Of a DNA stretch of 29,124 nucleotides, positions 4,380 through 17,137 are shown in pieces (the first letter of the stretch is position 1; every line of letters starts with the position of its first letter). The position numbers were made by a program, and so were the translations under genes. Under the pieces are notes generated by a model. The model made no database searches. It saw only the letters and a list, made by a program, of their open reading frames with translations, and had not been told where the DNA came from. This DNA is from a virus. The DNA lies in IMG/VR virus record IMGVR_UViG_3300044966_000398, positions 1 to 29,124 of that record. One strand, 5' to 3'.

Positions 4380-4382
4380 TCA

Positions 4383-4652
4383 ATGCGGGAACCACACGAG
4401 TTTGAGGTTCCTTTATGTGCTCAGGTAGGTGGAGATCTTTTCTTTCCTGACAAGGAAAACGAAGGCAAGCTTGTACGTCTGAGCATTGCATCAGCAAAAT
4501 CAATCTGTCGTAACTGCGAACACATTGTTGAATGTGCTGAGTGGGGTATCCGTAAGGAACGCCACGGTATCTGGGGTGGACTCACCGATGGTGACCGCAG
4601 AAGGATACGTAGAGAACGACGAATAATATTGGAAGAGGAGCAGAGTGCTTAA
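4383..4652 (+). CDS. WhiB-family Fe-S transcriptional regulator
   Basis: The 89-residue protein has the WhiB signature: C12, then C42-x2-C45-x5-C51, which ligate a 4Fe-4S cluster, followed by GIWGG at 62-66 and a basic tail with RRRIRRERR. WhiB proteins bind the primary sigma factor region 4 in actinobacteria and change promoter choice, and phage members can repress host whiB genes. The family is essentially restricted to actinobacteria and their phages, so this gene is the best host clue in the window. It overlaps the following helicase by eight bases. A sigma-like gene lies in the same operon at 7849. Confidence 0.9.
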   Translation: MREPHEFEVPLCAQVGGDLFFPDKENEGKLVRLSIASAKSICRNCEHIVECAEWGIRKERHGIWGGLTDGDRRRIRRERRIILEEEQSA

Positions 4653-6335: not shown

Positions 6336-6448
6336 TGCCAGTACCACAAGGTGATATCACAACAACAGAAATACTTGTACCAGAAGAAGTAGTTGAAGTT
6401 TCAACTACAGAAGAAGAAGAAGAAGATGATCTGCCAGAACTGTCATAA
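6335..6448 (+). CDS. Very acidic 37-residue peptide
   Basis: This frame starts at the stop of the resolvase gene (TAATG) and AAGGAG lies upstream. The peptide is dominated by Glu, with five in a row, plus Val and Thr, and has no Lys or Arg. Its purine-rich 3' end supplies the ribosome binding site of the next gene at 6426. It may be a genuine acidic modulator or mainly a coupling leader for the zinc protein. Function is not recognisable. Confidence 0.45.
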   Translation: MPVPQGDITTTEILVPEEVVEVSTTEEEEEDDLPELS

Positions 6449-6605
6449 AGGCGGAGAAGAGAACACGCTTGCTCACTACAAACGTTCAGCTCAATGGCAC
6501 GATAAGTGTGACGACAAGGGGTGCGTATGCCAGCACAAGACTGGTCCAGGGTACATAAAGCGAGCAAACGAAAGAACTCCGTTGATGCAACTTCAATCCC
6601 CATAG
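6426..6605 (+). CDS. Small zinc-finger protein, 59 residues
   Basis: The start MICQNCHKGGEEN gives a CxxC-H cluster and a second cluster, DKCDDKGCVCQH, follows at about residues 38-47, making a small treble-clef or ribbon likely. The A/G-rich run before ATG 6426 serves as the binding site. The last 79 bases overlap the primase zinc domain in another frame, so the C-terminal part is constrained by two proteins. Position beside primase suggests a nucleic-acid role, which is inference. Confidence 0.58.
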   Translation: MICQNCHKGGEENTLAHYKRSAQWHDKCDDKGCVCQHKTGPGYIKRANERTPLMQLQSP

Positions 6606-6904
6606 GAACTATTGTTTCCTATTACGGTGGAGAAGTAAGAGAAGGTAAGTCAGCAGCGGTTCGTTGCTGTATACATACAGACAGCAGACGTAGTGCTGTA
6701 ATGAATACGTATGACAACCTGTACTTCTGCCATACCTGCGGTAAGGGTGGCAGTTCAGTAGATGTTGTTATGCACATAGAGAACTTGGAGTTTAAGGATG
6801 CCCTCAATCGTGCAATCGAAATCATTGACGGAAGCGGCCAAACATTACAGCCGAAACATAAGCGCAGAGGCTCTAGGATATCTAGAAGAACGTGGGATAT
6901 CTGA
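6527..6904 (+). CDS. DNA primase, CHC2 zinc-binding part
   Basis: The 125-residue frame has the DnaG N-terminal zinc domain: CCIH (C47 or C48, H50), then FCHTCGKGG (C68, C71), followed by SSVDVVMHIENLEFKDALN, the typical helix after the CHC2 site. After EII at about residue 100 the sequence becomes basic and unlike primase and stops at 6904. The RNA polymerase core continues in a frame one base further on (6798-7448). The two parts therefore make one primase if a +1 frameshift occurs near 6825-6835, or two separate subunits if not. ATG 6527 follows AAGGGG. Confidence 0.78.
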   Translation: MPAQDWSRVHKASKRKNSVDATSIPIGTIVSYYGGEVREGKSAAVRCCIHTDSRRSAVMNTYDNLYFCHTCGKGGSSVDVVMHIENLEFKDALNRAIEIIDGSGQTLQPKHKRRGSRISRRTWDI

Positions 6905-7448
6905 TGTAGTTGCTAGTCAGTATTCGCTAGGTACGGTAGTAGATCCCATCAATGGTCACGAGATGCACCAAGGCTGGCTGTCTATCCCTTATATGACAGC
7001 TAATGGTATCTGCGTGGGCTATAAGTTTCGCAGACTAGATGACGGCAAACCCAAGTATGGATCACCAACAGGGCAGAAGGCACACCTGTATAACGTTAGC
7101 GATATAACTATTGACTCGTCATACATTGCAGTATGTGAAGGTGAGTTAGATGCGCTGGTCTTGTCTGGTCTTGTTGGCATACCAGCAGTAGGTGTACCTG
7201 GGGTACAGGCTTGGAAGCCACACTTTGTCAAGCTCTTTACTGGTTACGACACAGTTTTTGTTATTGGCGACAATGATATTAAAGAAGATGGCACCAACCC
7301 TGGCGCAGAGTTTGCTAAGCGTGTCGCGCAAGAGGTTTCTAATAGCACAATAGTAACATTACCCCCATCAATGGACATCAATGACTTCTATCTGACCAAA
7401 GGTTTAGATGCAACGAAGGCTTTGCTACTAGGACAGAAGGATGAGTAG
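6798..7448 (+). CDS. DNA primase, Toprim catalytic part
   Basis: This frame carries the DnaG catalytic features: the linker helix AEALGYLEERGISD (residues 23-36) followed by SLG, a GYKFRRL strand, AVCEGELDAL with the Toprim Glu at 114, and VIGDND with D158 and D160, which bind the metal ions. It would make RNA primers for the fork with the helicase at 4645. The first 15 residues or so do not look like primase and overlap the zinc part for 107 bases, so the real N-terminus may come from frameshifting out of that frame. No strong ribosome binding site precedes ATG 6798. The protein is short for DnaG and lacks the helicase-binding C-terminus. Confidence 0.78.
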   Translation: MPSIVQSKSLTEAAKHYSRNISAEALGYLEERGISDVVASQYSLGTVVDPINGHEMHQGWLSIPYMTANGICVGYKFRRLDDGKPKYGSPTGQKAHLYNVSDITIDSSYIAVCEGELDALVLSGLVGIPAVGVPGVQAWKPHFVKLFTGYDTVFVIGDNDIKEDGTNPGAEFAKRVAQEVSNSTIVTLPPSMDINDFYLTKGLDATKALLLGQKDE

Positions 7449-7454
7449 AGACGA

Positions 7455-7856
7455 ATGGCTACAGATGGTACAGATTTTGCAGCATATGGGCTTCCAGATC
7501 CTAGAGATCAATATGGAAACCGAGACTATACTGCTTCGGCCTATGCCGACAAGGTAAATGAAGCGTTCATCGCAGATGTCTGGCGCATTATGGATCAAGC
7601 AGGCAATCTACTGGTGCGTAAGCATCACGACTACGGCCCAAAGAACATTGCTCATTCACCAGGTGGACCACTTAATGGTCTGCGTGTACGTATGTGGGAC
7701 AAGATAGCTCGCATCAATAACTTACTAGACTCTGGTATTAAGCCAAGCAATGAGTCATTGCGTGATAGCTTTGTGGATTTATTAAACTATTCTGCTATTG
7801 CAATGATGGTACTCGATGGTGTGTGGCCAGAGGTAGAAGAACCTAATTGTGATTGA
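7455..7856 (+). CDS. DUF1599 / nucleotide-modification-associated domain protein
   Basis: The 133-residue protein contains KHHDYGPKNI, then LRVRMWDKIARINNLL, ESLRDSFVDLLNY and AIAMMVLDG, which matches the order of conserved blocks in DUF1599 (Nmad1) and more loosely the all-alpha MazG/dUTPase-like folds. Phage members have been proposed to act in making or policing modified nucleotides, but the reaction is not established. It follows primase by six bases and overlaps the sigma-like gene by eight. Role in nucleotide supply for replication is inferred. Confidence 0.7.
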   Translation: MATDGTDFAAYGLPDPRDQYGNRDYTASAYADKVNEAFIADVWRIMDQAGNLLVRKHHDYGPKNIAHSPGGPLNGLRVRMWDKIARINNLLDSGIKPSNESLRDSFVDLLNYSAIAMMVLDGVWPEVEEPNCD

Positions 7857-8481
7857 GCTACATAAATCTATCTACGACATAGCACCTAGCGTTGCTAGTG
7901 CAATAGCCCGTCGCTTTCGTGGCTACGTAGAACGAGATGATGTACTACAAGAGTGCCTTGCTTGGGCGCTTACACGTGGTACACAATTCAATGATGCTCT
8001 CAGTGAACCTAACCCAGTCCAACGTGTTATCAATGAGAAGCGCATTGCTTGGCAGATGAAACGTGCAGCAGAACGCTATGCTCGCAAGGAGAAGGCGGCT
8101 AAGTCTGGCTATCGAACAGGTGATGAAGCCTTCTACGATACAGCTATGATCGCACAGGTTTTACCTCACGTTATCGCATCCATTGTAGATGACACGGTGC
8201 TAGAGCAGGCTCAGAACCTTATTAATGATGGCTCACCTAAGAAGCCTAGCGTTCCAGCAGAAGGTGGCAACCTGCTTGCTACCTTGATTGATGTGAAGCG
8301 TTCATATCTAAAGCTTGAAGTAGAAGATCAAACCATACTTCGTATGCGCTACCACGAAGGACTTACCTTGCAACAGGTGGCAGGCTTACTAGAGTGTGCA
8401 GTATCTACCGCAGATCGTAGATGCACCAGCGCATTACGCAAGGTGCAGAATGGTTTGGGTGGTGATAACCCGTGGCAATGA
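7849..8481 (+). CDS. Sigma-70-family-like transcription factor
   Basis: The 210-residue protein has a region-2-like segment, FRGYVERDDVLQECLAWAL (about residues 23-41), followed by a basic helix with KRAAERYARKEKAAK. After a linker, region 4 follows as a helix-turn-helix, with EDQTILRMRYHEGLTLQQVAGLL and a recognition helix around VSTADRRCTSALRKV (about 157-200). It probably directs RNA polymerase to phage promoters, perhaps those of the late operon. Region 2 is short and divergent, so a role as a sigma-like coactivator is also possible. GTG 7849 is the start within the end of the previous gene, and its stop overlaps the next ATG. Confidence 0.75.
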   Translation: MIELHKSIYDIAPSVASAIARRFRGYVERDDVLQECLAWALTRGTQFNDALSEPNPVQRVINEKRIAWQMKRAAERYARKEKAAKSGYRTGDEAFYDTAMIAQVLPHVIASIVDDTVLEQAQNLINDGSPKKPSVPAEGGNLLATLIDVKRSYLKLEVEDQTILRMRYHEGLTLQQVAGLLECAVSTADRRCTSALRKVQNGLGGDNPWQ

Positions 8482-8861
8482 AAGAGATTGATTTATTCTT
8501 GTTCTTACTGGACACCAAGTACCCTGACTTGCAGAAGTCAGAGGGTATCTATGACTCATTCGATTGCATCAGTCGTGACTCATCTGCATACATAGAGTTG
8601 AAGTGTCGCAACACCCACTATCCCACGCTACTGATTGAAGAGATGAAGTATCGTAAGCTGATAACGCAGGCAGCAGAGCGAGATCTTACCCCGTTCTACA
8701 TTAACTCGACCCCAGAAGGGGTCTTTTCTTTTGACCTGATGGAAGTGCCAGAGCCTGAATGGTTTAGTCATTGGATGCCAGCGACAACAGAGTTCTCACG
8801 TTCCAATAAGGTCAGTAAGTTAGTAGGTTATCTACCTATCGAAGAGGCGGTAAAGCTCTGA
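8478..8861 (+). CDS. Unknown protein, nuclease-like core
   Basis: This 127-residue product starts at ATG 8478, overlapping the sigma-like stop (ATGA). D29 followed by YIELKCR (E40-x-K42) and a helix with EEMKYRKLITQA resembles a PD-(D/E)XK core, while the C-terminal half with WFSHWMPATTEF is unfamiliar. Similar small proteins in phages are uncharacterised. The gene contains a perfect terminator-like hairpin at 8708-8732. A second possible start at GTG 8472 is less attractive because it lacks the overlap pattern used across this operon. Confidence 0.6.
   Translation: MKEIDLFLFLLDTKYPDLQKSEGIYDSFDCISRDSSAYIELKCRNTHYPTLLIEEMKYRKLITQAAERDLTPFYINSTPEGVFSFDLMEVPEPEWFSHWMPATTEFSRSNKVSKLVGYLPIEEAVKL
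8708..8732 (+). terminator. Terminator-like hairpin inside a coding region
   Basis: A perfect 6-bp GC-rich stem, GACCCC with GGGGTC (8708-8713 and 8718-8723), encloses an AGAA loop and runs straight into TTTTCTTTT. It has the form of an intrinsic terminator but lies inside the gene at 8478-8861, 130 bases before its stop. It may cause partial termination when translation lags, or be a chance result of codon choice. Confidence 0.45.
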
Positions 8862-9034
8862 TGCAGTACGACTATCGTTGCCCTGATTGCAATGGGGAAA
8901 TAACTATTGAGCGCAGTATCCACGAGGATCCACGTGAGCCTTCTTGTTTTGATTGCCACGTAACAATGATCCGTAAGTGGGATACGCCTGCCATTACCTT
9001 CAAGGGTAAAGGCTTCTACTCTACCGACAAGTAA
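8861..9034 (+). CDS. FmdB-type zinc-ribbon protein
   Basis: The 57-residue product begins MQYDYRCPDC and has a second pair, CFDC, at residues 29-32, then MIRKWDTPAITFKGKGFYSTD. This is the layout of FmdB-family putative regulatory zinc ribbons, including the conserved KG-GFY ending. Its start overlaps the preceding stop by one base. It is the last gene of the rightward early operon, directly before the convergent hairpin. Family members are widespread but their function is poorly known; a transcription-related role is the usual suggestion. Confidence 0.75.
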   Translation: MQYDYRCPDCNGEITIERSIHEDPREPSCFDCHVTMIRKWDTPAITFKGKGFYSTDK

Positions 9035-9035: not shown

Positions 9036-9067
9036 GAACCCTACCGCGGAAGGGTGCAGTAGGGTTC
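9036..9067. terminator. Convergent hairpin terminator
   Basis: A 9-bp perfect stem, GAACCCTAC with GTAGGGTTC (9036-9044 and 9059-9067), lies between the rightward operon ending at 9034 and the leftward operon ending at about 9093. On the minus strand it is followed by a T-rich stretch (TTTACTT), so it probably serves the leftward transcript best; on the plus strand the T-run is missing. Confidence 0.65.
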
Positions 9068-9092: not shown

Positions 9093-9395
9093 TCAGATAG
9101 TATCAGTACCAGCCTCGTCTGTCGCTATGGCTGAGAGCGCGACACGCACTCCCTGCGTAGCGGTGATTAATGTATCGTAGGCCGTGAAGGATTTGTAGTT
9201 CAGGTTCTCTACTACGTTCTCTAAGGAGTTGAGCAATTCCGAAAGCTGAGCTAATTGGTTCTCCCTTAGAGTTCTTTGGGAAACCAAGGTGGTCGAAGCG
9301 GGATTCACGGGTCCAAAGTCGTAAGAGGCACGTCGTTTCTGCTCTCGTATAACCGAGAGCTTTACTAAATTTGTATGCAAGTTTTCTGTTCTCAC
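9093..9395 (-). CDS. Possible overprinted protein within the transglycosylase gene
   Basis: This 100-codon leftward frame starts at a GTG that immediately follows GGAGGAGAAGA, the best ribosome binding site in the area, and overlaps the stop of the gene at 9392-9676 in the same GTGA style used throughout the operon. The protein would be mostly helical with a leucine-rich middle (LAQLSELLNSLENVVENL). However, the transglycosylase frame across the same bases is clearly recognisable, so this is either a true overlapping gene or a chance open frame. Confidence 0.35.
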   Translation of the reverse strand: MRTENLHTNLVKLSVIREQKRRASYDFGPVNPASTTLVSQRTLRENQLAQLSELLNSLENVVENLNYKSFTAYDTLITATQGVRVALSAIATDEAGTDTI

Positions 9396-9531
9396 TCTTC
9401 TCCTCCATTGTTGCCTTGGTTTGGATCGGTTTGGGTAAGGGTAATTCCCCTAGCCTTTGCACGTGCAACGATACGAGGATTAACAGTAGCCCCGTTAAGA
9501 TCAATCCACGCTTTGCCTTCTTGCTCATCAC
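9103..9531 (-). CDS. Membrane-anchored transglycosylase/lysozyme-like protein
   Basis: The 142-residue leftward product begins with a basic start and one hydrophobic segment (residues 9-24), then a Pro-rich linker, then an SLT-like domain: LRLWTRESRFD with the probable catalytic Glu at 76, SSAFGIAQLL at 94-103, and GLRYINHRY with a closing RRGWY. Members cut the glycan chain of peptidoglycan. It is far from the lysis cassette and looks tethered to the membrane, so it may modify the wall locally or exclude other phages rather than lyse. Its first 140 bases overlap the gene at 9392-9676 in another frame, and a third frame overlaps its 3' part. Confidence 0.75.
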   Translation of the reverse strand: MMSKKAKRGLILTGLLLILVSLHVQRLGELPLPKPIQTKATMEEKSENRKLAYKFSKALGYTRAETTCLLRLWTRESRFDHLGFPKNSKGEPISSAFGIAQLLRERSREPELQILHGLRYINHRYAGSACRALSHSDRRGWY

Positions 9532-9676
9532 TCACCTTTTCCTTCTCCAGCAATTCTTTATACGCATCTGGGTAGGCTTGTGCCAGCTTCACCAGGGCGC
9601 GATCTCTTGCTCTTCGATAGTTGCGGTAATAGACGGCTTGCTTTGCAGCACTCGCCAGTCGCTTCTCATTGTCCAT
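9392..9676 (-). CDS. Basic helical phage protein of unknown function
   Basis: ATG 9676 follows GGAGG at a normal distance; an upstream in-frame start is less likely. The 94-residue protein has a strongly basic helix with YYRNYRRARDRALVKLAQAYPDAYKELLEKEK, typical of a conserved but uncharacterised actinophage type, and ends in a Gly/Asn-rich tail. The basic helix could contact DNA or RNA. Its first bases overlap the 27-residue membrane peptide and its last 140 overlap the transglycosylase start. Confidence 0.6.
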   Translation of the reverse strand: MDNEKRLASAAKQAVYYRNYRRARDRALVKLAQAYPDAYKELLEKEKVSDEQEGKAWIDLNGATVNPRIVARAKARGITLTQTDPNQGNNGGEE

Positions 9677-9749
9677 TGATCTTATCCTCCCATACAATTA
9701 GGACGTACGCCACTAGCATTACGCCTAGGATACCCAAGAAATAGCTCAT
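9666..9749 (-). CDS. 27-residue membrane peptide
   Basis: ATG 9749 overlaps the stop of the preceding gene (ATGA) and the frame ends 11 bases inside the next gene. The peptide is one hydrophobic helix (residues 3-20) followed by WEDKINGQ. The coupling on both sides supports translation. It resembles small inhibitory or holin-like membrane peptides only in shape; function is unknown. Confidence 0.5.
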   Translation of the reverse strand: MSYFLGILGVMLVAYVLIVWEDKINGQ

Positions 9750-10051
9750 TGATTCACCGCCAATACCGCATAGACAAGCTTGGTGATGTCAATGGGTTGG
9801 CCTACGAGGTGAGCATCTTCGTCATCACTCTCCCAACCCGACACAAGGATCCTGCAATTAACAGGGCTATTGCGTAGGTAGCGGATAGCTTCGTGCGTAT
9901 CGTTGCCACCCCAGATCGCCTCACCCTTCTCGTCTACCACTTCGTATAGGTTCACAAGTGGCGAGACGCGAGGGTGGAATGCAATTACTCTGTCGTCTGG
10001 ATCTCCTAAGAATGGATCTCCGTTGCTATCGAAGCGTAGGACTCTACTCAT
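9746..10051 (-). CDS. Unknown acidic protein, 101 residues
   Basis: The start at 10051 follows GGGAAGGGAGAG and overlaps the stop of the upstream gene. The product is Asp-rich, with a central beta-like segment (LVNLYEVVDEKGEAIWGGND), a helix with THEAIRYLR and an exposed acidic loop SGWESDDEDAH. The pattern strand-strand-helix with an AI-x2-L signature looks like a small alpha/beta domain. No family recognised. It is part of the accessory leftward operon. Confidence 0.55.
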   Translation of the reverse strand: MSRVLRFDSNGDPFLGDPDDRVIAFHPRVSPLVNLYEVVDEKGEAIWGGNDTHEAIRYLRNSPVNCRILVSGWESDDEDAHLVGQPIDITKLVYAVLAVNQ

Positions 10052-10211
10052 TCTCTCCCTTCCCTTCTGAGTAAGCATCAACCATAGACAAGGCGTAGGT
10101 CATACGCATTAGATTCATTCCCGCCTCCTTCTCTGTATCCTCTTCTTGGATCTGGATCAAGGCTAAATCTCTACACAATTCTGCCTTAGCTTGCCAGTAT
10201 TCTTTATTCAT
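10044..10211 (-). CDS. Unknown helical protein, 55 residues
   Basis: ATG 10211 overlaps the TAA of the preceding gene and GGGAGGGAAG provides the binding site from within that gene. The product is almost all helix (KAELCRDLALIQIQEEDTEKEAG) and ends GKGENE, an acidic tail that carries the next gene's binding site. No family recognised. Confidence 0.5.
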   Translation of the reverse strand: MNKEYWQAKAELCRDLALIQIQEEDTEKEAGMNLMRMTYALSMVDAYSEGKGENE

Positions 10212-10354
10212 TACTTCCCTCCCACTAATTGATCTGTTATCTGGAACCCTGTTGGTACGTGGAGACCGCAGTAATACCCGCCCCAGCCCCCTGCACAAGT
10301 GTCCATAGCATAGACAGTAGCCTGTCCCTTGCAGTTTTCACACACTTTACTCAT
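10211..10354 (-). CDS. Zinc-binding microprotein, 47 residues
   Basis: CENC at residues 5-8, C20, and CGLH (C29, H32) give a probable four- or five-ligand metal site. The middle is Gly/Trp/Tyr rich. GGGGGAG precedes ATG 10354, and the stop overlaps the next start (TAATG). Similar tiny treble-clef proteins are common in actinophages; function unknown. Confidence 0.55.
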   Translation of the reverse strand: MSKVCENCKGQATVYAMDTCAGGWGGYYCGLHVPTGFQITDQLVGGK

Positions 10355-10511
10355 TCTCCCCCTGCCCTTCTGTTGGTAGCACTCTACCCTTCCATTGTGT
10401 TTCGATTATCTTAATTACATCTTCACCAGTAGATAGCTTCTCCCAGTCCCACTCTTTCGGATCTCCGTCGTAAGTCTCTATCTCTAGTGTGACTAGGTAT
10501 CTATCCTTCAC
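10347..10511 (-). CDS. Unknown protein, 54 residues
   Basis: GTG 10511 is coupled to the preceding stop (GTGA) with GGAGG upstream. The product opens RYLVTLEIETYDGD, a likely beta strand pair, then a Trp-rich acidic segment and a helix with EDVIKIIET. It ends GQGENE. The opening strand resembles those of the proteins at 10884 and 11171. Function unknown. Confidence 0.48.
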   Translation of the reverse strand: MKDRYLVTLEIETYDGDPKEWDWEKLSTGEDVIKIIETQWKGRVLPTEGQGENE

Positions 10512-10750
10512 TCACCCGCCTCCTCTTGGATCTCCTTCACCACGTCGTTCACGGCCTTGTCTGGCACGTCCGAGGATAGTGAGATCTTAGATAGTGCCTC
10601 GCCTAACGCCGTGCGCCAATTACTCGCCTCTCCCGAGGCTAACAAGGTAGGCTCTTCACCGCTAAAATCAAATAGCTCTACCTTATTCCACTTAGATCCC
10701 GTCTGGATCACTAGCGTTACCACGTGCGTTGTCGTTTTCTCTTCGTTCAT
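10508..10750 (-). CDS. Unknown acidic protein, 80 residues
   Basis: The gene starts at ATG 10750 and is coupled on both sides (TAATG upstream, GTGA downstream). It has a beta-rich first half (THVVTLVIQTGSKWNKVELFDF), a helix with NWRTALGEALSKI and an acidic end, VVKEIQEEAGE. The predicted shape is a small beta-alpha domain with net negative charge. No family recognised. Confidence 0.52.
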   Translation of the reverse strand: MNEEKTTTHVVTLVIQTGSKWNKVELFDFSGEEPTLLASGEASNWRTALGEALSKISLSSDVPDKAVNDVVKEIQEEAGE

Positions 10751-10884
10751 TATTCATTCTCCTCTTCTATAGCTTCTAGTAAATTAATTATGCCAACGAT
10801 CTCTTCTGGAATTCCTTGCTCTCTCCAAGCATAAGAGTATAAGAATTTAATCTGATCTCTTAATAGCTCTAGATCTACCTTCAT
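10750..10884 (-). CDS. Unknown helical protein, 44 residues
   Basis: A short frame from ATG 10884 to 10750, joined by TAATG overlaps on both sides. It is predicted to be two helices (VDLELLRDQIKFLYSYAW, then PEEIVGIINLLEAI) with an acidic EEENE end. The helical hairpin shape could bind a partner protein. Function unknown. Confidence 0.48.
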   Translation of the reverse strand: MKVDLELLRDQIKFLYSYAWREQGIPEEIVGIINLLEAIEEENE

Positions 10885-11171
10885 TACTCACCCTCTCCTT
10901 CTATTACCGATACGTGGACAGGCGGGAATTCGCCTAGCCCGTCTAGCCAGATCTCTTTGTCCTCTAATAGTAGCGAGACGCTAATAGAGTGAGCGAAATT
11001 AATAGGATCTATCCCTAGCTCTCCACGAATAGCCTCGTTAGCTCTATCTTCTGCCAGCTCACGTGCATCATCACTTAGGTTACCCGTCGTATCGTCTAAA
11101 TCAATAGAGATACGGGTGGTAAGGCTCCAATAGTTACCCGTAAAAATAACGTTATAGTCGTACTCTTTCAT
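10884..11171 (-). CDS. Unknown acidic alpha/beta protein, 95 residues
   Basis: It starts at ATG 11171 after GGAGGGTGAG. The sequence runs strand (EYDYNVIFTG), strand (WSLTTRISIDLDD), helix (DDARELAEDRANEAIRGELG), strand (AHSISVSLLLED) and an acidic tail IEGEGE. It has about twice as many acidic as basic residues. The strand-strand-helix-strand order recalls small ferredoxin-like domains. No catalytic residues evident; a DNA-mimic role would be speculation. Confidence 0.55.
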   Translation of the reverse strand: MKEYDYNVIFTGNYWSLTTRISIDLDDTTGNLSDDARELAEDRANEAIRGELGIDPINFAHSISVSLLLEDKEIWLDGLGEFPPVHVSVIEGEGE

Positions 11172-11329
11172 TACTCACCCTCCAATTCGTAGGTAGCGTC
11201 ATTCGCTACGCTATCTCCATACTCTTCTGCAATTATGAGCTTGGCCCGTGATAGGGCCTCGCTATCGTTATCGGCTCCTAGTGAGATCGCCTCACCCTTC
11301 AATGTAACTAACACGGTATAGTCCTTCAT
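11171..11329 (-). CDS. Unknown alpha/beta protein, 52 residues
   Basis: This frame (ATG 11329) begins KDYTVLVTLKGEAISLGAD, followed by a helix NDSEALSRAKLIIAEEYGD and a last strand ending YELEGE. The strand, acidic turn and EA-x3-AK helix repeat a pattern seen at 10884 and 12630, suggesting related small folds. TAATG overlaps on both sides support expression. Function unknown. Confidence 0.5.
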   Translation of the reverse strand: MKDYTVLVTLKGEAISLGADNDSEALSRAKLIIAEEYGDSVANDATYELEGE

Positions 11330-11907
11330 TATGCGCTCACCTTCTGCACAATTCCACGGGGTAGATCTCTTGTGCCGTCCTCTAAGAATGATCCATTTTC
11401 TTCCCGCTCTTGATCCGTTAAGTATTGCAAGGCACTTAGCTCGCTAGTCTCATTCTCTATGTATCGGTAGCCTAACGTCTCTAATCTCTTGCATAAGTGG
11501 CGCAATTGCTCTTCAATAGAAGATCCCGATAGATCAATAGGTTCATCATTCTCATCACTTAGCTCTACGTTGAAAGAGTTATAGTGAGAGTAATGATTAC
11601 TCCAAGAATTTCGCACTAGATCTACGTAGCAAGATCCTTCTGGCCACGATAGATCTGGAGCCTCGCTCTTATAGATTCTACCGTATAGTGCCACGCCGTC
11701 GCCTTGGCAATAGCTAAGTGAGTAGGCAATAGTTATGTCCTCGGGTAAGGATCCAAGATCCTCTTTAAGCTTACCTTCTAAGTAAGCGGTAATCTCCTCC
11801 TCGCGTAACCATTCCAATAGACGGTTACGTGTCTCTTCGATAGCTTTATTACGTGCCTCTTCATTCAATTCCGAGAATGAGTAACGGCGTACTGTGTATT
11901 CGTTCAT
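11329..11907 (-). CDS. Largest cassette protein, acidic, uncharacterised
   Basis: At 192 residues this is the longest gene in the leftward cassette. It opens RRYSFSELNEEARNKAIEE, an entry helix of a type found in uncharacterised phage and plasmid proteins, then a central region with aromatic and polar residues (SYCQGDGVALYGRIY; NHYSHYNSFNVEL), then two helices and a C-terminal segment ending QKVSA. It is acidic overall. The closest resemblance I can offer is to antitoxin-like or anti-restriction accessory proteins, without a diagnostic motif. Its stop overlaps the next start (TAATG). Confidence 0.6.
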   Translation of the reverse strand: MNEYTVRRYSFSELNEEARNKAIEETRNRLLEWLREEEITAYLEGKLKEDLGSLPEDITIAYSLSYCQGDGVALYGRIYKSEAPDLSWPEGSCYVDLVRNSWSNHYSHYNSFNVELSDENDEPIDLSGSSIEEQLRHLCKRLETLGYRYIENETSELSALQYLTDQEREENGSFLEDGTRDLPRGIVQKVSA

Positions 11908-11909
11908 TA

Positions 11910-12041
11910 TTACTCCCCTATCCCGTAGCTCTGGCAGATCTCCATAACCGCATCATCTAATTGCTGTACTAGCATCATTCTTTCGTCGTCGTTCAATTGC
12001 TTAACCATTCCCGCTGTAACGCTTGATTTCCATACGTTCAT
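11910..12041 (-). CDS. Unknown protein, 43 residues, first gene after a leader module
   Basis: ATG 12041 follows the conserved CCTTGGAAGGGG leader sequence, so it is probably the first gene of a sub-operon. The product is a helix-rich peptide with LNDDERMMLVQQLDDAVMEIC and an acidic end. Two bases separate its stop from the next ATG. Function unknown. Confidence 0.5.
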   Translation of the reverse strand: MNVWKSSVTAGMVKQLNDDERMMLVQQLDDAVMEICQSYGIGE

Positions 12042-12147
12042 TACTTACCCCTTCCAAGGTATTTATTAGGGCGATTCACCCTCCCCTCCCCTCCACGTCT
12101 GCCCGTGGAGGAGAAGAGATAGCTAACCGCTATTGCCTTACCTTACC
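12042..12147 (-). promoter_or_regulatory. Leader module with hairpin (module 3)
   Basis: This gene-free stretch holds an 8-bp perfect hairpin (12090-12097 with 12104-12111; minus-strand loop GGCAGA), a run of GGGGAGGGG, and CCTTGGAAGGGG (plus-strand complement at 12048-12059) a few bases before ATG 12041. The same element and a GGCAGA/TCTGCC hairpin precede the gene at 13351, and a variant precedes 14403. GGAAGGGG itself is a good ribosome binding site; the hairpin may be for processing or antitermination. Confidence 0.5.
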
Positions 12148-12273
12148 CTATAAGTACTCGAATAGATCACCGTCGCCGATTATGTCCTCTATGTCCGATA
12201 GATCATAAGGATCATCACCGTAGATTAGATCATTCAACTGTGTAACGATCTCCTCTTTCGTATCTCCTATCAC
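12148..12273 (-). CDS. Very acidic protein, 41 residues
   Basis: GTG 12273 is coupled to the stop of the upstream gene (GTGA), with GGAGGCGGGAG before it. The peptide is rich in Asp, Glu and Ile (LIYGDDPYDLSDIEDIIGDG) with one Lys. It is the last gene before a leader module. Such strongly acidic peptides can mimic nucleic acid, but there is no direct evidence. Confidence 0.48.
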   Translation of the reverse strand: MIGDTKEEIVTQLNDLIYGDDPYDLSDIEDIIGDGDLFEYL

Positions 12274-12464
12274 TCTCCCGCCTCCTCTCTACACTTACAC
12301 AATAAACCGCACGTAAAGCATACGTCGCCTCTCGTAACCCCCGAAGTGTAACGATAGCTCCGATAGCCTTCGGGATCTTGTACATAGTAACGGCCTTCTA
12401 AGTCTTGCTTAGCCCCGTGAAAGACACGGGCCTCTTCTAGTATCCTCTTATCTTCACTATTCAC
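12270..12464 (-). CDS. Cys-rich small protein, 64 residues
   Basis: GTG 12464 follows GGAGGGGGAAG. The first two thirds are charged and Tyr/Arg rich (GRYYVQDPEGYRSYRY), and the end carries CFTCGLLCKC, four closely spaced cysteines, then EEAGE. The cluster would fit a zinc knuckle. Both ends overlap neighbours by four bases. Function unknown. Confidence 0.5.
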   Translation of the reverse strand: MNSEDKRILEEARVFHGAKQDLEGRYYVQDPEGYRSYRYTSGVTRGDVCFTCGLLCKCREEAGE

Positions 12465-12640
12465 TCTTCCCCCTCCTCTAGCTCATAACGTAATCGGGCG
12501 CACGATTCAATAAAGCTACGCTTGGCCTCTCCCTCTTCGTAACCGTAATACGTGGCAGATTCAAGCCACCTAAGCCCTTCGTGATACACCAAGGCAGACA
12601 CGATTAAGGCTCCACTATGTTGCACTCTTTCAATTGTCAT
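12461..12640 (-). CDS. Unknown protein, 59 residues
   Basis: ATG 12640 follows AGGAGAAGGG; an in-frame GTG at 12649 is possible. The product has a beta-like opening (GALIVSALVYHEG), then a helix with RWLESATYYGYEEGEAKRSFIESCARLRYEL. The YYGY-x4-A-x3-F pattern is familiar from unnamed actinophage proteins. It ends EEGEE. Function unknown. Confidence 0.52.
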   Translation of the reverse strand: MTIERVQHSGALIVSALVYHEGLRWLESATYYGYEEGEAKRSFIESCARLRYELEEGEE

Positions 12641-12770
12641 TCTTCTCACCCTTCTCCTCTAATCTAATTATTTGTGCGCTATCGGGTAGCTCTAGTGTCG
12701 CCATACTCCACGCCTCGTTTTCGCTATCTGCCGTTAAGTAAAAGAACGAGGTCACTTTCCAATTACTCAT
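12630..12770 (-). CDS. Unknown protein, 46 residues
   Basis: ATG 12770 lies at the end of the zinc protein upstream (overlap of eight bases). The product opens NWKVTSFFYLTADSENEAWSMA, strand then EA-containing helix, similar to the gene at 11171, and ends acidic and Lys-rich. A longer reading from 12863 would run across the upstream zinc gene and is rejected. Confidence 0.48.
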   Translation of the reverse strand: MSNWKVTSFFYLTADSENEAWSMATLELPDSAQIIRLEEKGEKNDN

Positions 12771-12885
12771 TAGGCCAACACTTTCCACAGTATTGGCAAC
12801 TATAAGAATTCGTGTATTGGTTATAGATAACCTCACCCGATTTCTTGCACGATACGCAAGCATTATCTTCGGAATAGCTATTCAT
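12763..12885 (-). CDS. Zinc-ribbon microprotein, 40 residues
   Basis: ATG 12885 is preceded by GGAGAAGGGTGAG. CVSC at residues 10-13 and CQYCGKC at 30-36 give two CxxC pairs separated by a Tyr-rich strand, the pattern of a minimal zinc ribbon. It overlaps both neighbours. Function unknown. Confidence 0.55.
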   Translation of the reverse strand: MNSYSEDNACVSCKKSGEVIYNQYTNSYSCQYCGKCWPNE

Positions 12886-12979
12886 TACTCTCACCCTTCT
12901 CCTCTTCGTCGTAAGATCCTACGGGAATCACCTTCACGATTCCCGCCTCTTGTAAAGCTTTCAATAGATCCGCGCTCAC
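12878..12979 (-). CDS. Short peptide, 33 residues
   Basis: GTG 12979 is coupled to the previous stop (GTGA) with AGGGGAAGGGG upstream. The peptide has an amphipathic start (ADLLKALQEAGIVKVIPVG) and an acidic end. Its 3' part supplies the binding site for the gene at 12885. It may be a true microprotein or a coupling element. Confidence 0.42.
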   Translation of the reverse strand: MSADLLKALQEAGIVKVIPVGSYDEEEKGESNE

Positions 12980-13107
12980 CTTTTCCCCTTCCCCTCTTCT
13001 AAGAATCGTTTAAGGCATAAGTAACCTTGCTCACCGCTAAGCGAGGCAGACAAGGAGACATCACTAAGCCATAGATAATACGTATAATCTGACACTTCGT
13101 TACTCAC
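12976..13107 (-). CDS. Short protein, 43 residues
   Basis: GTG 13107 follows GAGGGTGAAGA. The product has a hydrophobic, Ser/Leu/Tyr-rich centre (YTYYLWLSDVSLSASLSG) and a basic end, EEGKGKR. The centre is too polar for a certain membrane helix. Coupled to both neighbours by GTGA. Function unknown. Confidence 0.43.
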   Translation of the reverse strand: MSNEVSDYTYYLWLSDVSLSASLSGEQGYLCLKRFLEEGKGKR

Positions 13108-13199
13108 TCTTCACCCTCTCCTTGTATGTAATCGTTATACCCTGTGCCGTCGTCCCCGTTTTCTTGGCGATCTTCTATCCACTTCTTTAGATTACTCAC
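13104..13199 (-). CDS. Short acidic peptide, 31 residues
   Basis: GTG 13199 overlaps the stop of the upstream gene. The peptide starts with a short helix (NLKKWIEDRQENG) and ends with a Gly/Asp/Glu-rich tail. It is short enough that translation could serve mainly to couple neighbours. Function unknown. Confidence 0.4.
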   Translation of the reverse strand: MSNLKKWIEDRQENGDDGTGYNDYIQGEGEE

Positions 13200-13351
13200 G
13201 CGCTCACCCGCTCCTTCTGCCCTAATTGGATCCCCGCTAAGGCGTAAGCCTTCACGATAGCCTTCACCCGTGGCGCGGTTAGATCCGCGCTCACTATCTC
13301 TTCACCCGTAGATAGATCTACAAGGCTCACCCGCTCCTTCTGATACTTCAT
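13196..13351 (-). CDS. Unknown protein, 51 residues, first gene after a leader module
   Basis: ATG 13351 follows the CCTTGGAAGGGG element; an upstream in-frame start inside the leader is rejected. The product reads strand (RVSLVDLSTGEEIVSADL) then helix (PRVKAIVKAYALAGIQLG) and ends QKERVSA, much like the QKVSA end of the gene at 11329. It is the first gene of the middle sub-operon. Function unknown. Confidence 0.5.
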   Translation of the reverse strand: MKYQKERVSLVDLSTGEEIVSADLTAPRVKAIVKAYALAGIQLGQKERVSA

Positions 13352-13434
13352 AACTAACCCCTTCCAAGGTTTAGATTCTGCCCCTAGTGGCAGATTACCC
13401 CGCACGGCCTCGGGCCGTGCGAGATAATTCGCTC
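13352..13434 (-). promoter_or_regulatory. Leader module with two hairpins (module 2)
   Basis: The gap holds a 9-bp perfect hairpin (13401-13409 with 13413-13421), a 6-bp TCTGCC/GGCAGA hairpin (13377-13382 with 13389-13394) and the CCTTGGAAGGGG element (complement at 13358-13369) just before ATG 13351. Neither hairpin has a T-run, so simple termination is unlikely. Confidence 0.5.
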
Positions 13435-13578
13435 CTAGAGATTACAGTCTGCCATTGATCCCGTGCAGATCCCCGTCTCGGTTATCCATACATTACCCGT
13501 GATCCAAAAGGCCACGGCGATCAGAAGGCCTACGGCCACGCCTAGCACGAAGGCCCCGCGCTTGGTTAGATTCTCCAT
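13435..13578 (-). CDS. Single-pass membrane protein, 47 residues
   Basis: ATG 13578 overlaps the TAA of the zinc peptide upstream, with GGAGCGGG as binding site. A hydrophobic helix at residues 9-27 follows a basic start, and the tail contains two Cys (C38, C45) that could form a disulfide outside the cell if the N-terminus is inside. It ends the first sub-operon. It may be an envelope-acting accessory; function unknown. Confidence 0.55.
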   Translation of the reverse strand: MENLTKRGAFVLGVAVGLLIAVAFWITGNVWITETGICTGSMADCNL

Positions 13579-13652
13579 TATTTTCCCGCTCCTTTACATA
13601 GTCGGCAATTATTAGATCTTGGCGCTACGCCTTTACACTTAGGGCAATTCAT
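13578..13652 (-). CDS. 24-residue DnaJ-like zinc microprotein
   Basis: The whole peptide is CPKCKG, a short basic loop, then CRLCKGAGK. The second half is an exact CxxCxGxG, the repeat of DnaJ zinc fingers, and the first half is close to it. ATG 13652 is preceded by GGAGGCGTAAAG, and its stop overlaps the next ATG. Size is at the lower limit for an annotated gene, but the four spaced Cys argue against chance. It could bind a client or act as a zinc-dependent adaptor. Confidence 0.55.
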   Translation of the reverse strand: MNCPKCKGVAPRSNNCRLCKGAGK

Positions 13653-13657
13653 TATCT

Positions 13658-14059
13658 TTACGCCTCCAAGCCTTCAAGCATAAGGGAGGCATAACGCCAT
13701 ACGGGGGAGCCTTCGGGTACTTCACGACGTGCGCCGTCGAACCAATCTTGGAAGACATAATCAATGCGACGGATCCCGTCGCCGTCGTGCTGTACTTCGA
13801 TCCAATCGGCGGGGCCTCCACCGCTCCACGTAAAACGGGTAACTTTATGGGTATCGGACCCGTAGGCCATTTCATTGATCTCATCAATGGCCCCGTCCCG
13901 CTCCTCCTCGGTGGCCGTGCAATCTTTATCGTCGAAGATAGTGAAGAGCGTGTCTAGATAACGCTCACGATCTTTCAACTCGCTTTCAATTCGGGCCTCG
14001 CAACTCTTGTCCTTGATCTCTTCTAATTGTGCGCCTAGCTCATCAACTGTGTTATTCAT
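13658..14059 (-). CDS. Acidic unknown protein, 133 residues
   Basis: ATG 14059 overlaps the stop upstream and is preceded by GAAGGGATC. The N-terminal 65 residues are a charged helical hairpin (ELGAQLEEIKDKSCEARIE; RERYLDTLF), and the second half is beta-rich with WSGGGPADWIEVQHDG and IRRIDYVFQDWFDGARREV. Asp and Glu strongly outnumber Lys and Arg. No catalytic motif is evident. As an acidic early protein it is a reasonable anti-defence candidate, purely by context. Confidence 0.58.
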   Translation of the reverse strand: MNNTVDELGAQLEEIKDKSCEARIESELKDRERYLDTLFTIFDDKDCTATEEERDGAIDEINEMAYGSDTHKVTRFTWSGGGPADWIEVQHDGDGIRRIDYVFQDWFDGARREVPEGSPVWRYASLMLEGLEA

Positions 14060-14223
14060 TAGTTAGATCCCTTCGATAGTGTGGCGATACCTCCGACAAT
14101 GGAGGCGGATAATAGTGAGATTAGTGCGAACGCAATAGTTACGTCGTAAGTTATGGCGACACTCGAAAGAGTCGCGTAAAGAATAACGGGTGTAAAAGTA
14201 GCGATAAACAATAAGAATTTCAC
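14059..14223 (-). CDS. Two-segment membrane protein, 54 residues
   Basis: GTG 14223 follows GAAAGGAAATAAC. Hydrophobic stretches at about residues 2-20 and 28-47 are separated by a short polar turn, giving a helical hairpin in the membrane. The end is short and basic. It resembles small holin-type or superinfection-exclusion proteins in shape only. Coupled to both neighbours. Confidence 0.55.
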   Translation of the reverse strand: MKFLLFIATFTPVILYATLSSVAITYDVTIAFALISLLSASIVGGIATLSKGSN

Positions 14224-14403
14224 TTAGTTATTTCCTTTCAGATTAGACATTTCCCAATTCCAATTGAATTCGTTTATGTCCCAAGGTGTAATTTCATTAT
14301 TAAGATTTTCACGTGCGAATAGTTCGGCCTCTTCACGTGTTGCATACGTGCGAATAGTTAGCCATAAATTATTCTTCAAGATTCGTACCGCGTACATAAT
14401 CAT
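14224..14403 (-). CDS. First gene of the leftward cassette, 59 residues
   Basis: ATG 14403 (or 14397) follows GGAAGG in the leader at 14404-14447. The product opens MYAVRILKNNLWLTIRTYATREEAELFAR, two strands and a helix with an EEAE-x2-A signature, then an Asn/Trp-rich end. Small phage proteins of this type are common and unexplained. It is promoter-proximal in the leftward unit. Confidence 0.52.
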   Translation of the reverse strand: MIMYAVRILKNNLWLTIRTYATREEAELFARENLNNEITPWDINEFNWNWEMSNLKGNN

Positions 14404-14447
14404 TACTTAGATCCTTCCAATAAAGTGAGGAGGCAGATCCTCTTCAC
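14404..14447 (-). promoter_or_regulatory. Leader module with hairpin (module 1)
   Basis: Upstream of ATG 14403 lies TTGGAAGG (complement at 14413-14420), a variant of the element in modules 2 and 3, and a hairpin of GTGAGGA with TCC-TC-TTCAC including a bulge (14425-14447) whose loop again reads TCTGCC on the minus strand. Confidence 0.45.
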
Positions 14448-14626
14448 GGGTATAACTATACACGACGCTACCGTATAGGGAAGGGAGGCAAGGCGGAAAG
14501 ATTCGGCTACGTGTCCTTAGCTAAGGATCCAAGGCGGGGAGGATCCACGGCCCGAAGGGATAAGGCGGGGCTAGATCCAAGGGAGGAGGCAAGGCCCGAA
14601 GGATCCAAGGTAAGGCGGGAAGGGTG

Positions 14627-14654
14627 AACCCTTGGCCCGTAACCCTTGGCCCGT
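14627..14654. repeat. Perfect 14-bp tandem duplication
   Basis: AACCCTTGGCCCGT occurs twice head to tail (14627-14640, 14641-14654) inside the GC-rich block. It could be a protein-binding iteron pair or recent slippage. Confidence 0.8.
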
Positions 14655-14840
14655 GGATCAATGGAGGCGGGGCGGGGAAGGATCGAAGGCGCGAGGCTTG
14701 GCCGTAGATCCTTGGAGCCTTGGCCTATTCGTTAGGCCTCGGGGTTATCGGTGGAGCGGGTTTATTAATTAGGGGTTAGGTAATTGATACAGGGATCCCC
14801 GTGCCGATAGGGGAGCCTACCCTCGGGGAATACCTAACGG

Positions 14841-14910
14841 TACGGTACGGGGCAGACGGGAGGCCTTCGGCTACGGTACGGGCCACGGGTACGGCGAGCA
14901 GACCCTACGG
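14841..14910. repeat. Six TACGG iteron-like repeats
   Basis: TACGG occurs at 14841, 14846, 14872, 14877, 14890 and 14906, including two direct doublets 31 bases apart. This clustering at the AT-rich border looks like binding sites for an initiator or terminase protein, although the unit is short. Confidence 0.45.
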
Positions 14911-15004
14911 TGTTAAGTTTAGTGCGTGTGTATAGTATGTACCCACTACAGATATATTTCCTAAAGTAAACCAGATCACTTATTTATGTCCTAGTTTGTA
15001 CCGT

Positions 15005-15035
15005 ATTGTATGTGACGTTAGTCACATTCTGTAAA
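15005..15035 (-). promoter_or_regulatory. Likely leftward promoter with Crp/GlxR-type operator
   Basis: On the minus strand TTTACA (complement at 15030-15035) and TACAAT (complement at 15005-15010) are spaced by 19 bases. Between them sits TGTGACGTTAGTCACA (15011-15026), a perfect TGTGA-N6-TCACA palindrome of the Crp/GlxR type. A bound dimer would cover the promoter spacer and probably repress the leftward cassette. The spacing is slightly long, so the promoter call is tentative; the palindrome is clear. Confidence 0.55.
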
Positions 15036-15049
15036 TACTTTATACCATA

Positions 15050-15076
15050 GGCAGGAAATGATGTTTTTTTCCTGCC
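15050..15076. other. 9-bp inverted repeat
   Basis: GGCAGGAAA (15050-15058) pairs with TTTCCTGCC (15068-15076) around a T-rich loop. No T-run follows on the plus strand, so it is not a standard terminator. It may be a binding site or an RNA hairpin at the start of a rightward leader. Confidence 0.55.
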
Positions 15077-15085
15077 TTATATACA

Positions 15086-15231
15086 GTAGGGGCGGTAATT
15101 GTGATAGCCCCGTAACTACTCGCTACGTTGGCACTACGCGAGTCCCTAGGACGAGCACCAACTTACCCCTCGCTTCGCTGTGGCTCGCTCGGGAGTTTAC
15201 CGTATCCGTGGTTGTGCAGAGCACAACTTTT
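15086..15231 (+). ncRNA. Structured leader or small RNA upstream of terminase
   Basis: This gene-free stretch holds several hairpins: GGGGC with GCCCC (about 15089-15111), ACTCGC with GCGAGT (15118-15123 and 15138-15143), alternative pairing of GTTGG (15127-15131) with CCAAC further on, and a final terminator. Competing pairings followed by a terminator 46 bases before a start codon are typical of an attenuator or riboswitch, but no known class is recognised. No tRNA-like arms were found. Confidence 0.4.
15211..15231 (+). terminator. Rho-independent terminator before terminase
   Basis: A perfect 7-bp stem, GTTGTGC with GCACAAC, around an AGA loop, is followed by TTTT. It lies 46 bases upstream of the terminase ATG, so rightward transcripts starting further left would stop here unless read-through is allowed. 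Confidence 0.72.
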
Positions 15232-15277
15232 AATCGGGTGTAGTCTATCTATAACCCAATGAGATACTGGAGACCCA

Positions 15278-17137
15278 ATGGCTGAGAACTCAGCAGATAT
15301 AGCAAAGCGAATCATCTTAGGATGTGTAGCTGAGGGTATGACCATTGAACAAGCCTGCCTATCGGCAGGTAAGTCTATGAAGACATACGAGTACTACCGA
15401 CGTACCGACAAGATCTTTACAGACAAAGTAGACCGAACCCGCCTTGGACTAAAGGACAAGTCCTTCGCCGCAGGCGATGTCCACGACATCACCTTCGCCG
15501 AGTTCCGCCAACGCTTCCTTAACTCTAAGACCTTTCCCCACCAGCAAAACCTTGTTGATATGATCGAAGGCGTTGAGCCTTCCTGGTTACACCCTTCGAT
15601 GAAGTACGAGCCAGGACTAGCCAACAACCGTATCCTTATTAACATCCCGCCAAACCACGCCAAGTCCATCACAATCACTGTGGACTACGTAACCTGGCAG
15701 GTAGCCCGTAATCCTAACTTTAGAGTGCTGATAGTCTCACAGACCCAGCAACTTGCAGCCGACTTTCTCTACGCCATCAAGCAGCGTTTGACTCACCCAA
15801 TGTATGAGAACCTTCAAAATGCTTATGCTGCTGGCGTAGGGTTTAACTCTAAGTCTGCCTCCTGGCAGGCTACTCGTATCACCTTTGGTGATGAGCTTCG
15901 TGAGTCTAGCGAAAAAGACCCAAACATTGAAGCTGTAGGTATCGGCGGTCAGATCTACGGCAAACGTGCCGATATGATTATCGTAGACGATGCTGTCACT
16001 TTGAAAAACGCCAATGAGTTTGAACGCCAAATCAAGTGGTTGACACAGGACGTACGTTCTCGTCTGAACCCTACTGGTAAACTTATTATCATTGGTACCC
16101 GCGTTGCTGCAGTTGATCTCTATAGAGAACTGCGTAACCCAGACCGCTATCCAGGTGGTCAAGTTCCTTGGAAGTATCTGGCAATGCCAGCTCTGCTGAC
16201 AACGGATGAAGACCCTGACAAATGGGAAACTCTCTGGCCAGCAAGTGATGCTCCCTTTGATGGGCAAGAAGAATCAGATCTTAATGAGGACGGCCTTTAT
16301 CCTAGATGGAATGGTCGTAACCTTTACAACGAACGCCAAGCTATGGATGCTTCCACTTGGGCATTGGTTTACCAGCAACAAGACATCTCAGATGATGCCA
16401 TCTTTGATCCAGCGTGTGTAAGAGGTTCTATTGATGGTATGCGCAAAGCAGGTCGCTTGGTTCCTGGTCATCCAGGCCATCCACGCGATACGAACGGCTT
16501 TAGTTTTATTTGTGGTCTTGATCCCGCTATGGTTGGTGATACAGCCGCCATTTGCTACGCTATTGATCGGGTTACTCATAAACGCTATATCGTTGACGCT
16601 ATTAAAATTACTAGGCCAACGCCTGCTCAAATTCGTCAGCTAATCTTTGACTGGACTTCACTGTATAGTCCTAGTGAATGGATCGTGGAGAAAAATGCTT
16701 TCCAATCATTCCTTACGCAAGATGAGGGAATCCGCGCAAACTTGGCCTCTAGAGGAGTGCTACTGCGGGAACACCATACTGGAAACAACAAGTGGGACTC
16801 AGGATTCGGTGTTGCATCAATGTCAACTTTGTTCGGCACCAAGCAACACGACGGTAAGCACCACAGAGACAACCTTATTCACTTACCTTCTGACCAAACT
16901 GAAAACATTAAAGCGCTCATTGAGCAACTAATTACTTGGTCCCCAACGACCAAGGGTAAAACCGATATGGTAATGGCGTTATGGTTCTGTGAGATCCGCG
17001 CCCGTGAAATGCTTAACCAAGGTATCCACGCAACGCACCATATGAAAAACCCCTTCCTGTCTCGTTACGAACAGGGCAAGCGAATGGTCGTCAACATTGA
17101 CGAACTGCTCGCAGAAAAAGAACGCACATTCATCTAA
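15278..17137 (+). CDS. terL: Terminase large subunit with N-terminal HTH-like region
   Basis: The 619-residue protein packages DNA into the prohead. Walker A is the phage variant NIPPNHAKS (122-130), Walker B is MIIVDD (233-238), and IIGTRV (271-276) is the coupling motif. The RNase-H-like nuclease follows: GLDPAMVGD with D415, VEKNAF with E471, and KTDMVMALWF near the end. The first 60 residues look like a small-terminase DNA-binding helix-turn-helix (GMTIEQACLSAGKSMKTYEYYRR would be the recognition region), and no separate terS is seen nearby. GGAG precedes ATG 15278. It opens the late operon. Confidence 0.93.
   Translation: MAENSADIAKRIILGCVAEGMTIEQACLSAGKSMKTYEYYRRTDKIFTDKVDRTRLGLKDKSFAAGDVHDITFAEFRQRFLNSKTFPHQQNLVDMIEGVEPSWLHPSMKYEPGLANNRILINIPPNHAKSITITVDYVTWQVARNPNFRVLIVSQTQQLAADFLYAIKQRLTHPMYENLQNAYAAGVGFNSKSASWQATRITFGDELRESSEKDPNIEAVGIGGQIYGKRADMIIVDDAVTLKNANEFERQIKWLTQDVRSRLNPTGKLIIIGTRVAAVDLYRELRNPDRYPGGQVPWKYLAMPALLTTDEDPDKWETLWPASDAPFDGQEESDLNEDGLYPRWNGRNLYNERQAMDASTWALVYQQQDISDDAIFDPACVRGSIDGMRKAGRLVPGHPGHPRDTNGFSFICGLDPAMVGDTAAICYAIDRVTHKRYIVDAIKITRPTPAQIRQLIFDWTSLYSPSEWIVEKNAFQSFLTQDEGIRANLASRGVLLREHHTGNNKWDSGFGVASMSTLFGTKQHDGKHHRDNLIHLPSDQTENIKALIEQLITWSPTTKGKTDMVMALWFCEIRAREMLNQGIHATHHMKNPFLSRYEQGKRMVVNIDELLAEKERTFI

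Follow-up and report, generated by a model that had tools for sequence, protein, structure and literature searches.

The IMG/VR virus record IMGVR_UViG_3300044966_000398 is a 29,124-base sequence from a tailed phage, and the whole of it is referred to here as the window. Positions 9093-14403 are occupied by a leftward run of 28 very small genes, g01 to g28. We think it probable, with some reserve, that this cassette is an accessory operon directed against host defences, in which translation of neighbouring genes is coupled, the messenger RNA (mRNA) is divided by structured leaders and a transglycosylase gene has been overprinted. The firm new facts are the overlap and the punctuated message.

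The run lies between two rightward blocks, namely the replication-type genes (2976-9034) and the structural genes, which begin with the terminase (15278-17137). Judged by the terminase (46% identity), the nearest cultured relatives are OX376640 and OX376641, which are the isolated phages LanE43-AprE7 (E7) and AprF5 (F5) of 'Ca. Planktophila landstejnensis' (PMC10202952). Because of this kinship, and not on direct evidence, the window phage is likely to infect a freshwater actinobacterium, and the best explanation has it as an actinophage of a family infecting 'Ca. Nanopelagicales'. A terminase pattern search of genome contigs revealed no relative with the patterns used, and hence no prophage and no host contig. 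The relatives used for comparison are 80 viral contigs whose terminases share 88-99% identity with that of the window.

The frames of the cassette are real genes, because the 28 minus-strand open reading frames (ORFs) tile the region, covering 5115 of its 5311 bases (96.3%), because a Shine-Dalgarno (SD) core is present at -16 to -4 in 25 of the 28 (21% at random cassette positions), and because substitutions relative to relatives of at least 60% identity fall chiefly at codon position 3 in nearly all testable genes, which indicates purifying selection. For g15, g17 and g19, there were one or two informative relatives each for the codon-position test. A preliminary description, made from the letters alone, had listed about 27 leftward micro-genes, nearly all under 100 codons and joined by overlaps, and this is close to what was found. 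The median ORF length is 53 aa, with only g03 (133 aa), g16 (192 aa), g24 (101 aa), g27 (142 aa) and g28 (100 aa) reaching 100 aa, and the gene spacings are mostly -1, -4, -8 or -11, which correspond to start/stop overlaps. The membrane (g02, g05, g25 and the start of g27), zinc-binding (the zinc-ribbon-like g04, g10, g13 and g22) and transglycosylase-like (g27) products that it named are present. It had also called the products mostly acidic, and the net charge is below -1 in 17 of 28, though this is partly an SD-encoding effect in the C-terminal tails. Among coupled genes in 43 cassettes, Glu makes up 28% of the last seven residues and 10% of the body, and tails such as EEGEE and EGEGE arise because the purine-rich SD of the next gene is encoded in the last codons at coupled junctions. 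The charge of the tails is thus poor evidence for function.

At the 3' end of the operon, g27 (9531-9103) has its first third over the end of g26 (94 aa, 9392-9676, the second half of which overlaps g27) and its remainder over g28 (9093-9395), and the GTG start of g28 overlaps the stop of g26 (GTGA). This is an unusually complete case of dual coding in a double-stranded DNA (dsDNA) phage. The preliminary description passed over this three-gene overlap (9093-9676) and the structured leaders treated below. Of 90 distinct sequences, 87 retain the triple overlap, their frames both open and in a shared register. The exceptions are two sequences with broken or truncated frames and L070, a divergent relative, which has a shorter g26 yet an overlapping g28-like frame. 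Purifying selection acts on both frames of the overlap. In the close clade, the ratio of changes at codon position 3 to the mean of positions 1 and 2 is 7.1 for the terminase, 4.7 for g24 and 1.7 for g27, and within g26 it is 3.5 before the overlap and 0.84 inside it. When the codons of g27 were permuted synonymously, g28 stayed open in 0-9% of trials per sequence, the sequences being related and the tests not independent.

The product of g27 (142 aa, membrane-anchored) resembles a lytic transglycosylase. It matches the profiles phrog_12661 (E 1.3e-8) and phrog_35836 (E 4.1e-5), and Pfam Phage_lysozyme2 below the cut-off. Residues E76, S77, G98, I99, A100 and Q101 are invariant in 13 sequences, forming an ES motif followed by G-I-A-Q, and the Glu of the ES motif is presumably catalytic. 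The structure model of g27 has a predicted template modelling score (pTM) of 0.56. AlphaFold predicts g28 (100 aa) to be one long helix (residues 32-93), with a predicted local distance difference test score (pLDDT) that is mostly >90. Single-frame homologues of g27 are found in Streptomyces phages and in E7 and F5, and no relative of g28 was found in 50,697 phage records. Because the outgroups have a single-frame gene and g28 is without an outside relative, the overlap is most likely derived, with g28 and the tail of g26 overprinted on the transglycosylase gene. As non-overlapped homologues are available for comparison, the birth of g28 should be traceable.

Two structured leaders interrupt the run. 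Leader 1 (13352-13434, minus strand) folds at -40.3 kcal/mol (z -4.4) into a long hairpin and a second hairpin, with the SD within a GNRA-capped hairpin. Leader 2 (12042-12147, minus strand) folds at -47.1 kcal/mol (z -5.2), with a 16-bp hairpin, then further hairpins and the SD. The two share the ending ACCTTGGAAGGGGT, in which a small GNRA-loop hairpin can enclose the SD. Nine relatives retain leader 1; most of its pairs do not vary among them and two covary, so the covariation support is weak. The leaders of a second clade, here called the AGCT clade after the tetramer enriched in its cassettes (see below), are built alike and show five covarying pairs. Of the 43 cassettes, 35 contain one or more structured leaders and 22 contain two, often directly after the g05 family.

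In 18 of the relatives' contigs, one leader is a type II hammerhead by core and covariation, with the order GAUC-GAAA-stem III-UC-stem I-CUGAUGA-GAUC. The core (CUGANGA and GAAA) is invariant in 14 sequences, and a U-H cleavage site and three stems, stem II being open, are present. In the alignment of these 14, all 214 pairing cells (214/214) hold standard pairs and 9 of the 16 pairs have changed on both sides. A model built from them finds the 18 contigs, four of which were not used in building it, and all matches are sense to the cassette. These hammerheads are predicted to be self-cleaving. In published cases (PMC3088659), type II hammerheads flank ardA and cleave polycistronic phage RNA, and those described here share with them the core, the permutation with open stem II and a location between phage genes on the sense strand. 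However, here there is one per cassette, the slot is elsewhere filled by long hairpins, and the Rfam family RF02276 does not recognise them. An Rfam search of the window and 11 relatives gave nothing above threshold, and weak matches of the window to snoR121, ar14 and MIR6426 were judged to be due to chance. Leaders in which hairpin and ribozyme can be swapped offer a test case for the ways in which a polycistronic message is split up in phages.

The position of the cassette is constant and its content changes fast, and the locus is well supported as a compact accessory island, in line with the compact accessory operon of the preliminary description. That description had also pointed to cassette content among related phages as a comparison worth making. 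Among 43 relatives' contigs with a cassette spanning terminase to g24, a simple gene caller found 628 genes, which fall into 204 protein families, including 101 singletons; the family counts are approximate, as the caller missed g22 and picked other starts for g06 and g12. Against this turnover there is a constant framework, with three near-constant families, those of g23 (42 cassettes), g24 (37 cassettes) and g05 (33 cassettes). Some gene pairs were found in either order, and relatives with 97-98% identical terminases have the first half of the cassette only partly in common. The site would be a named, comparable place where phages that infect one of the most abundant freshwater bacterial groups exchange small anti-host genes, and its approximately 200 tiny protein families are a ready screening list.

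That the locus is an accessory anti-defence island is supported via the relatives. The anti-restriction protein ArdC is represented in AGCT-clade cassettes by its N-terminal domain (ArdcN, above cut-off), and ArdA was found in the cassette of L070. ArdA is also found in phage E7 at 441-680, between the terminase (3200) and the transglycosylase (37613) across the record ends, and this gene was reported previously (PMC10202952). The relatives' cassettes also carry SNase-like (nuclease) and sliding-clamp-like proteins. Restriction-site avoidance differs by lineage. In 80 loci of the family, CATG was observed once against approximately 2702 expected; the window contains no CATG and no CCGG (approximately 89 and 29 expected, respectively), and a 16-kb stretch of phage F5 contains no GATC and no AGCT. 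Because the loss of CATG is nearly total, restriction pressure on the family seems to be heavy, in keeping with a locus that acts against restriction. The anti-defence islands of phages and of plasmid leading regions (e.g. PMC11541004) are likewise fixed sites with exchangeable small genes that include anti-restriction genes. In contrast to those islands, recognised anti-restriction genes are found here only in relatives, and none in the window's copy. In the divergent L070 (record G010), which carries ArdA in its cassette, a C5 methyltransferase match directly follows the transglycosylase, and a methyltransferase of the N6/N4 type lies elsewhere.

According to the explanation that we favour, a single leftward transcript would start near a conserved block beside the terminase and stop at the 9036-9067 hairpin. 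The transcript would hold, in its 5' and middle portions, a store of tiny exchangeable genes acting against host defences or host processes, with restriction as the best-supported target judging from the relatives' cassettes, and the 3' part, g23-g28, would be a constant framework. Overlapping stop and start codons, with the next SD inside the preceding gene, would keep translation coupled while the genes turn over. The two structured leaders would cut or cap the mRNA, giving some three segments with a strong SD as the restart point of each; the leaders of the window are long hairpins that may be suited to RNase III, and in some relatives one leader is a type II hammerhead. Finally, g26 would have been extended into the 5' part of the transglycosylase gene and g28 would have arisen inside the remainder, with both frames now selected.

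Several results weigh against this explanation. The hammerhead model finds no match in the window, and the ribozymes belong to the relatives, whose hammerheads gave no match to RF02276 at E 10 in five records, which we keep as a reservation. Foldseek gave no significant match with the g27 model. The preliminary description had proposed a promoter, but a sigma-70-type scan of the region did not find a consensus promoter, with no match upstream of g01 and fewer matches over the whole region than in shuffles. None of the window's own scanned cassette genes had a defence-related Pfam or PHROG match (several ORFs <45 aa were unscanned and PADLOC was not run). The anti-defence function suggested earlier is supported for the locus, through ArdA and ArdcN in the relatives' cassettes; for the window's own copy, we infer it.

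Other explanations were considered for the cassette as a whole. It is conceivable, though we consider it unlikely, that the cassette mainly serves host takeover by inhibiting transcription, division or metabolism of the host, and that anti-restriction genes are only occasional passengers in it. Most families consist of tiny acidic proteins that match nothing, much as in early regions known from lytic phages, and sliding-clamp-like and nuclease-like proteins occur among the relatives. However, the only clear counter-host functions that can be named are anti-restriction, and the restriction pressure on the family is strong. In a further reading, g23-g28 are a lysis or cell-wall module, the whole cassette is late and the transglycosylase acts with the endopeptidase encoded at 1288-1791. 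The membrane anchor of the transglycosylase-like g27 and the small membrane peptide g25 would suit such a module, and overlapping lysis genes are known elsewhere (Rz/Rz1), but the cassette is on the strand opposite the structural genes and the homologue in Streptomyces phage Endor1 is in an operon with nucleotide-metabolism genes, making a lysis module improbable.

The remaining alternatives concern the leaders and the overlap. The long-hairpin leaders of the window could be translation or attenuation elements that present or hide the SD, and not processing sites. This is a serious possibility, albeit not the one we prefer, given strong hairpins directly before strong SDs and a last hairpin that partly encloses the SD. 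Against it, the comparable intergenic slot of other cassettes is occupied by hammerheads, and this points to cutting as the function that both share. For the overlap, it is very improbable that g28 is untranslated and that synonymous change in g27 is suppressed by RNA structure or another DNA-level signal. The lack of a g28 relative outside the clade would agree with this, but the g28 frame is open over 93-102 codons with the same overlapping GTGA start in 85 of the 90 sequences, and its SD is encoded by the near-constant GGE(A/E) end of g26. In addition, four-fold sites in distant pairs differ by 0.60 in g24, 0.22 in g27 over g28 and 0.20 in the frame of g28 itself, and the identity in the g28 frame is 0.60 against a null of 0.40.

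Parts of this arrangement resemble known systems. In phages E7 and F5, too, the run of small genes points away from the terminase and closes with a transglycosylase, replication-type genes converge on it, and in E7 it includes ArdA. In F5, the transglycosylase is followed by an FmdB-like zinc ribbon, and sigma-like and endonuclease-like genes face the run (all three identified by eye). These phages differ from the window in the terminase (46% identity) and in having a single-frame transglycosylase and no g28, and a hammerhead was not found in them. In Camvirus Endor1 and other Streptomyces phages, a homologue of the transglycosylase (33-36%) also ends a leftward small-gene operon, but it is not overlapped, the genes are larger and a serine integrase is nearby. 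Overlaps of the microvirus and Rz/Rz1 types (reviewed in PMC8227390) likewise involve a derived gene read inside an older gene. Here, in contrast, the older gene encodes an enzyme and two different genes, one after the other, overlap almost all of it, and the setting is a dsDNA phage with relatives whose genomes are approximately 40 kb.

The cassettes are also enriched in one palindromic tetramer, which differs between lineages. In the window clade, GATC occurs 10-15 times per kb in the cassette versus approximately 4 elsewhere, and in the AGCT clade, AGCT occurs 20-23 times per kb in the cassette versus 2-4 elsewhere. The cassette-only tetramer is GATC in the window (9093-14900), L003 and L014, AGCT in L004, L008, L011, L012 and L016, and GGCC in L035. 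Strong enrichment is found in two clades only, which implies two events and not many, and shared gene families differ by clade. In most members, the density peaks in and around the noncoding zone that precedes g01 and declines along the transcript. Within dipeptides, the enrichment holds in all three codon phases; for AGCT, the values for the three phases are 64%, 74% and 31% in the cassette versus 3%, 24% and 10% in the terminase. Codon usage alone was ruled out as the cause, as the enrichment survives synonymous shuffling, and tandem duplication was rejected as the main cause because the flanking bases are nearly unconstrained. A DNA methyltransferase was also considered, and the GATC-clade and AGCT-clade records, which include fragments, yielded no C5 or N6/N4 methyltransferase (PF00145, PF01555). 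The nearest analogy is with the highly iterated palindromes (HIPs) of cyanobacteria (PMC4390886), where one palindrome is over-represented per lineage and the word changes between relatives. However, the enrichment here is confined to one operon of 4-5 kb, in clades whose records yielded neither type of methyltransferase. Only tentatively, we suggest that a lineage-specific process or function builds up one palindrome in this operon, and that the words might serve to mark or protect the cassette on entry via methylation, be protein-binding sites or be the trace of a local ratchet of repair such as has been proposed for HIPs.

Before g01, there is a variable noncoding zone with a leader (14404-14900) that is rich in GATC and GGCC. 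It is followed, beside the terminase, by a conserved noncoding block (14901-15277) that is nearly identical in L003, L008, L012 and L014 and contains an inverted repeat, GGCAGGAAA...TTTCCTGCC (15040-15110). This block is possibly a control region, an origin or a packaging site. At the other end of the operon, the terminator that had been noted previously was recovered as a terminator-like hairpin between the converging genes (9036-9067, minus strand), with a 12-bp stem and z -4.6.

The remaining genes, all on the minus strand, are as follows in the order of transcription. The first, g01 (14224-14403, 59 aa), has no relative found, and is followed by the membrane-like g02 (14059-14223, 54 aa), the acidic g03 (13658-14059), g04 (13578-13652, 24 aa), which is zinc-ribbon-like with a CxxC...CxxC pattern, and g05 (13435-13578, 47 aa), which has a single membrane helix and belongs to framework family F3. 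Between the leaders are g06 (13196-13351, 51 aa, family F8), g07 (13104-13199, 31 aa), g08 (12976-13107, 43 aa), g09 (12878-12979, 33 aa), the zinc-ribbon-like g10 (12763-12885, 40 aa), g11 (12630-12770, 46 aa), g12 (12461-12640, 59 aa, family F6, found in 15 cassettes), g13 (12270-12464, 64 aa, with four Cys) and the acidic g14 (12148-12273, 41 aa). Leader 2 precedes g15 (11910-12041, 43 aa) and g16 (11329-11907). The latter is the largest gene, matches phrog_5162 (no named function, E 4e-15) and was found in only three other contigs. Next are g17 (11171-11329, 52 aa), the acidic g18 (10884-11171, 95 aa, family F12), g19 (10750-10884, 44 aa), g20 (10508-10750, 80 aa, family F5, 16 cassettes), g21 (10347-10511, 54 aa, family F4, 23 cassettes) and the Cys-rich g22 (10211-10354, 47 aa), for which no relative was found. 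Before g26, the framework comprises g23 (10044-10211, 55 aa, family F1), g24 (9746-10051, family F2) and the membrane peptide g25 (9666-9749, 27 aa).

The codon usage of the cassette differs strongly from that of the rest of the phage, with CTA used for 40% versus 21% of Leu, ACG for 37% versus 7% of Thr, and GCC and GCG together for 61% versus 18% of Ala. Outside the cassette, the product of 1288-1791 by eye resembles an M15-type D-Ala-D-Ala peptidase and is a likely endolysin, and that of 2358-2915 resembles, also by eye, a proteasome/HslV-type Ntn hydrolase. In phage F5 (L082), the gene directly before the transglycosylase (7561-7914), where the window has g26, appears by eye to encode a WhiB-type regulator.

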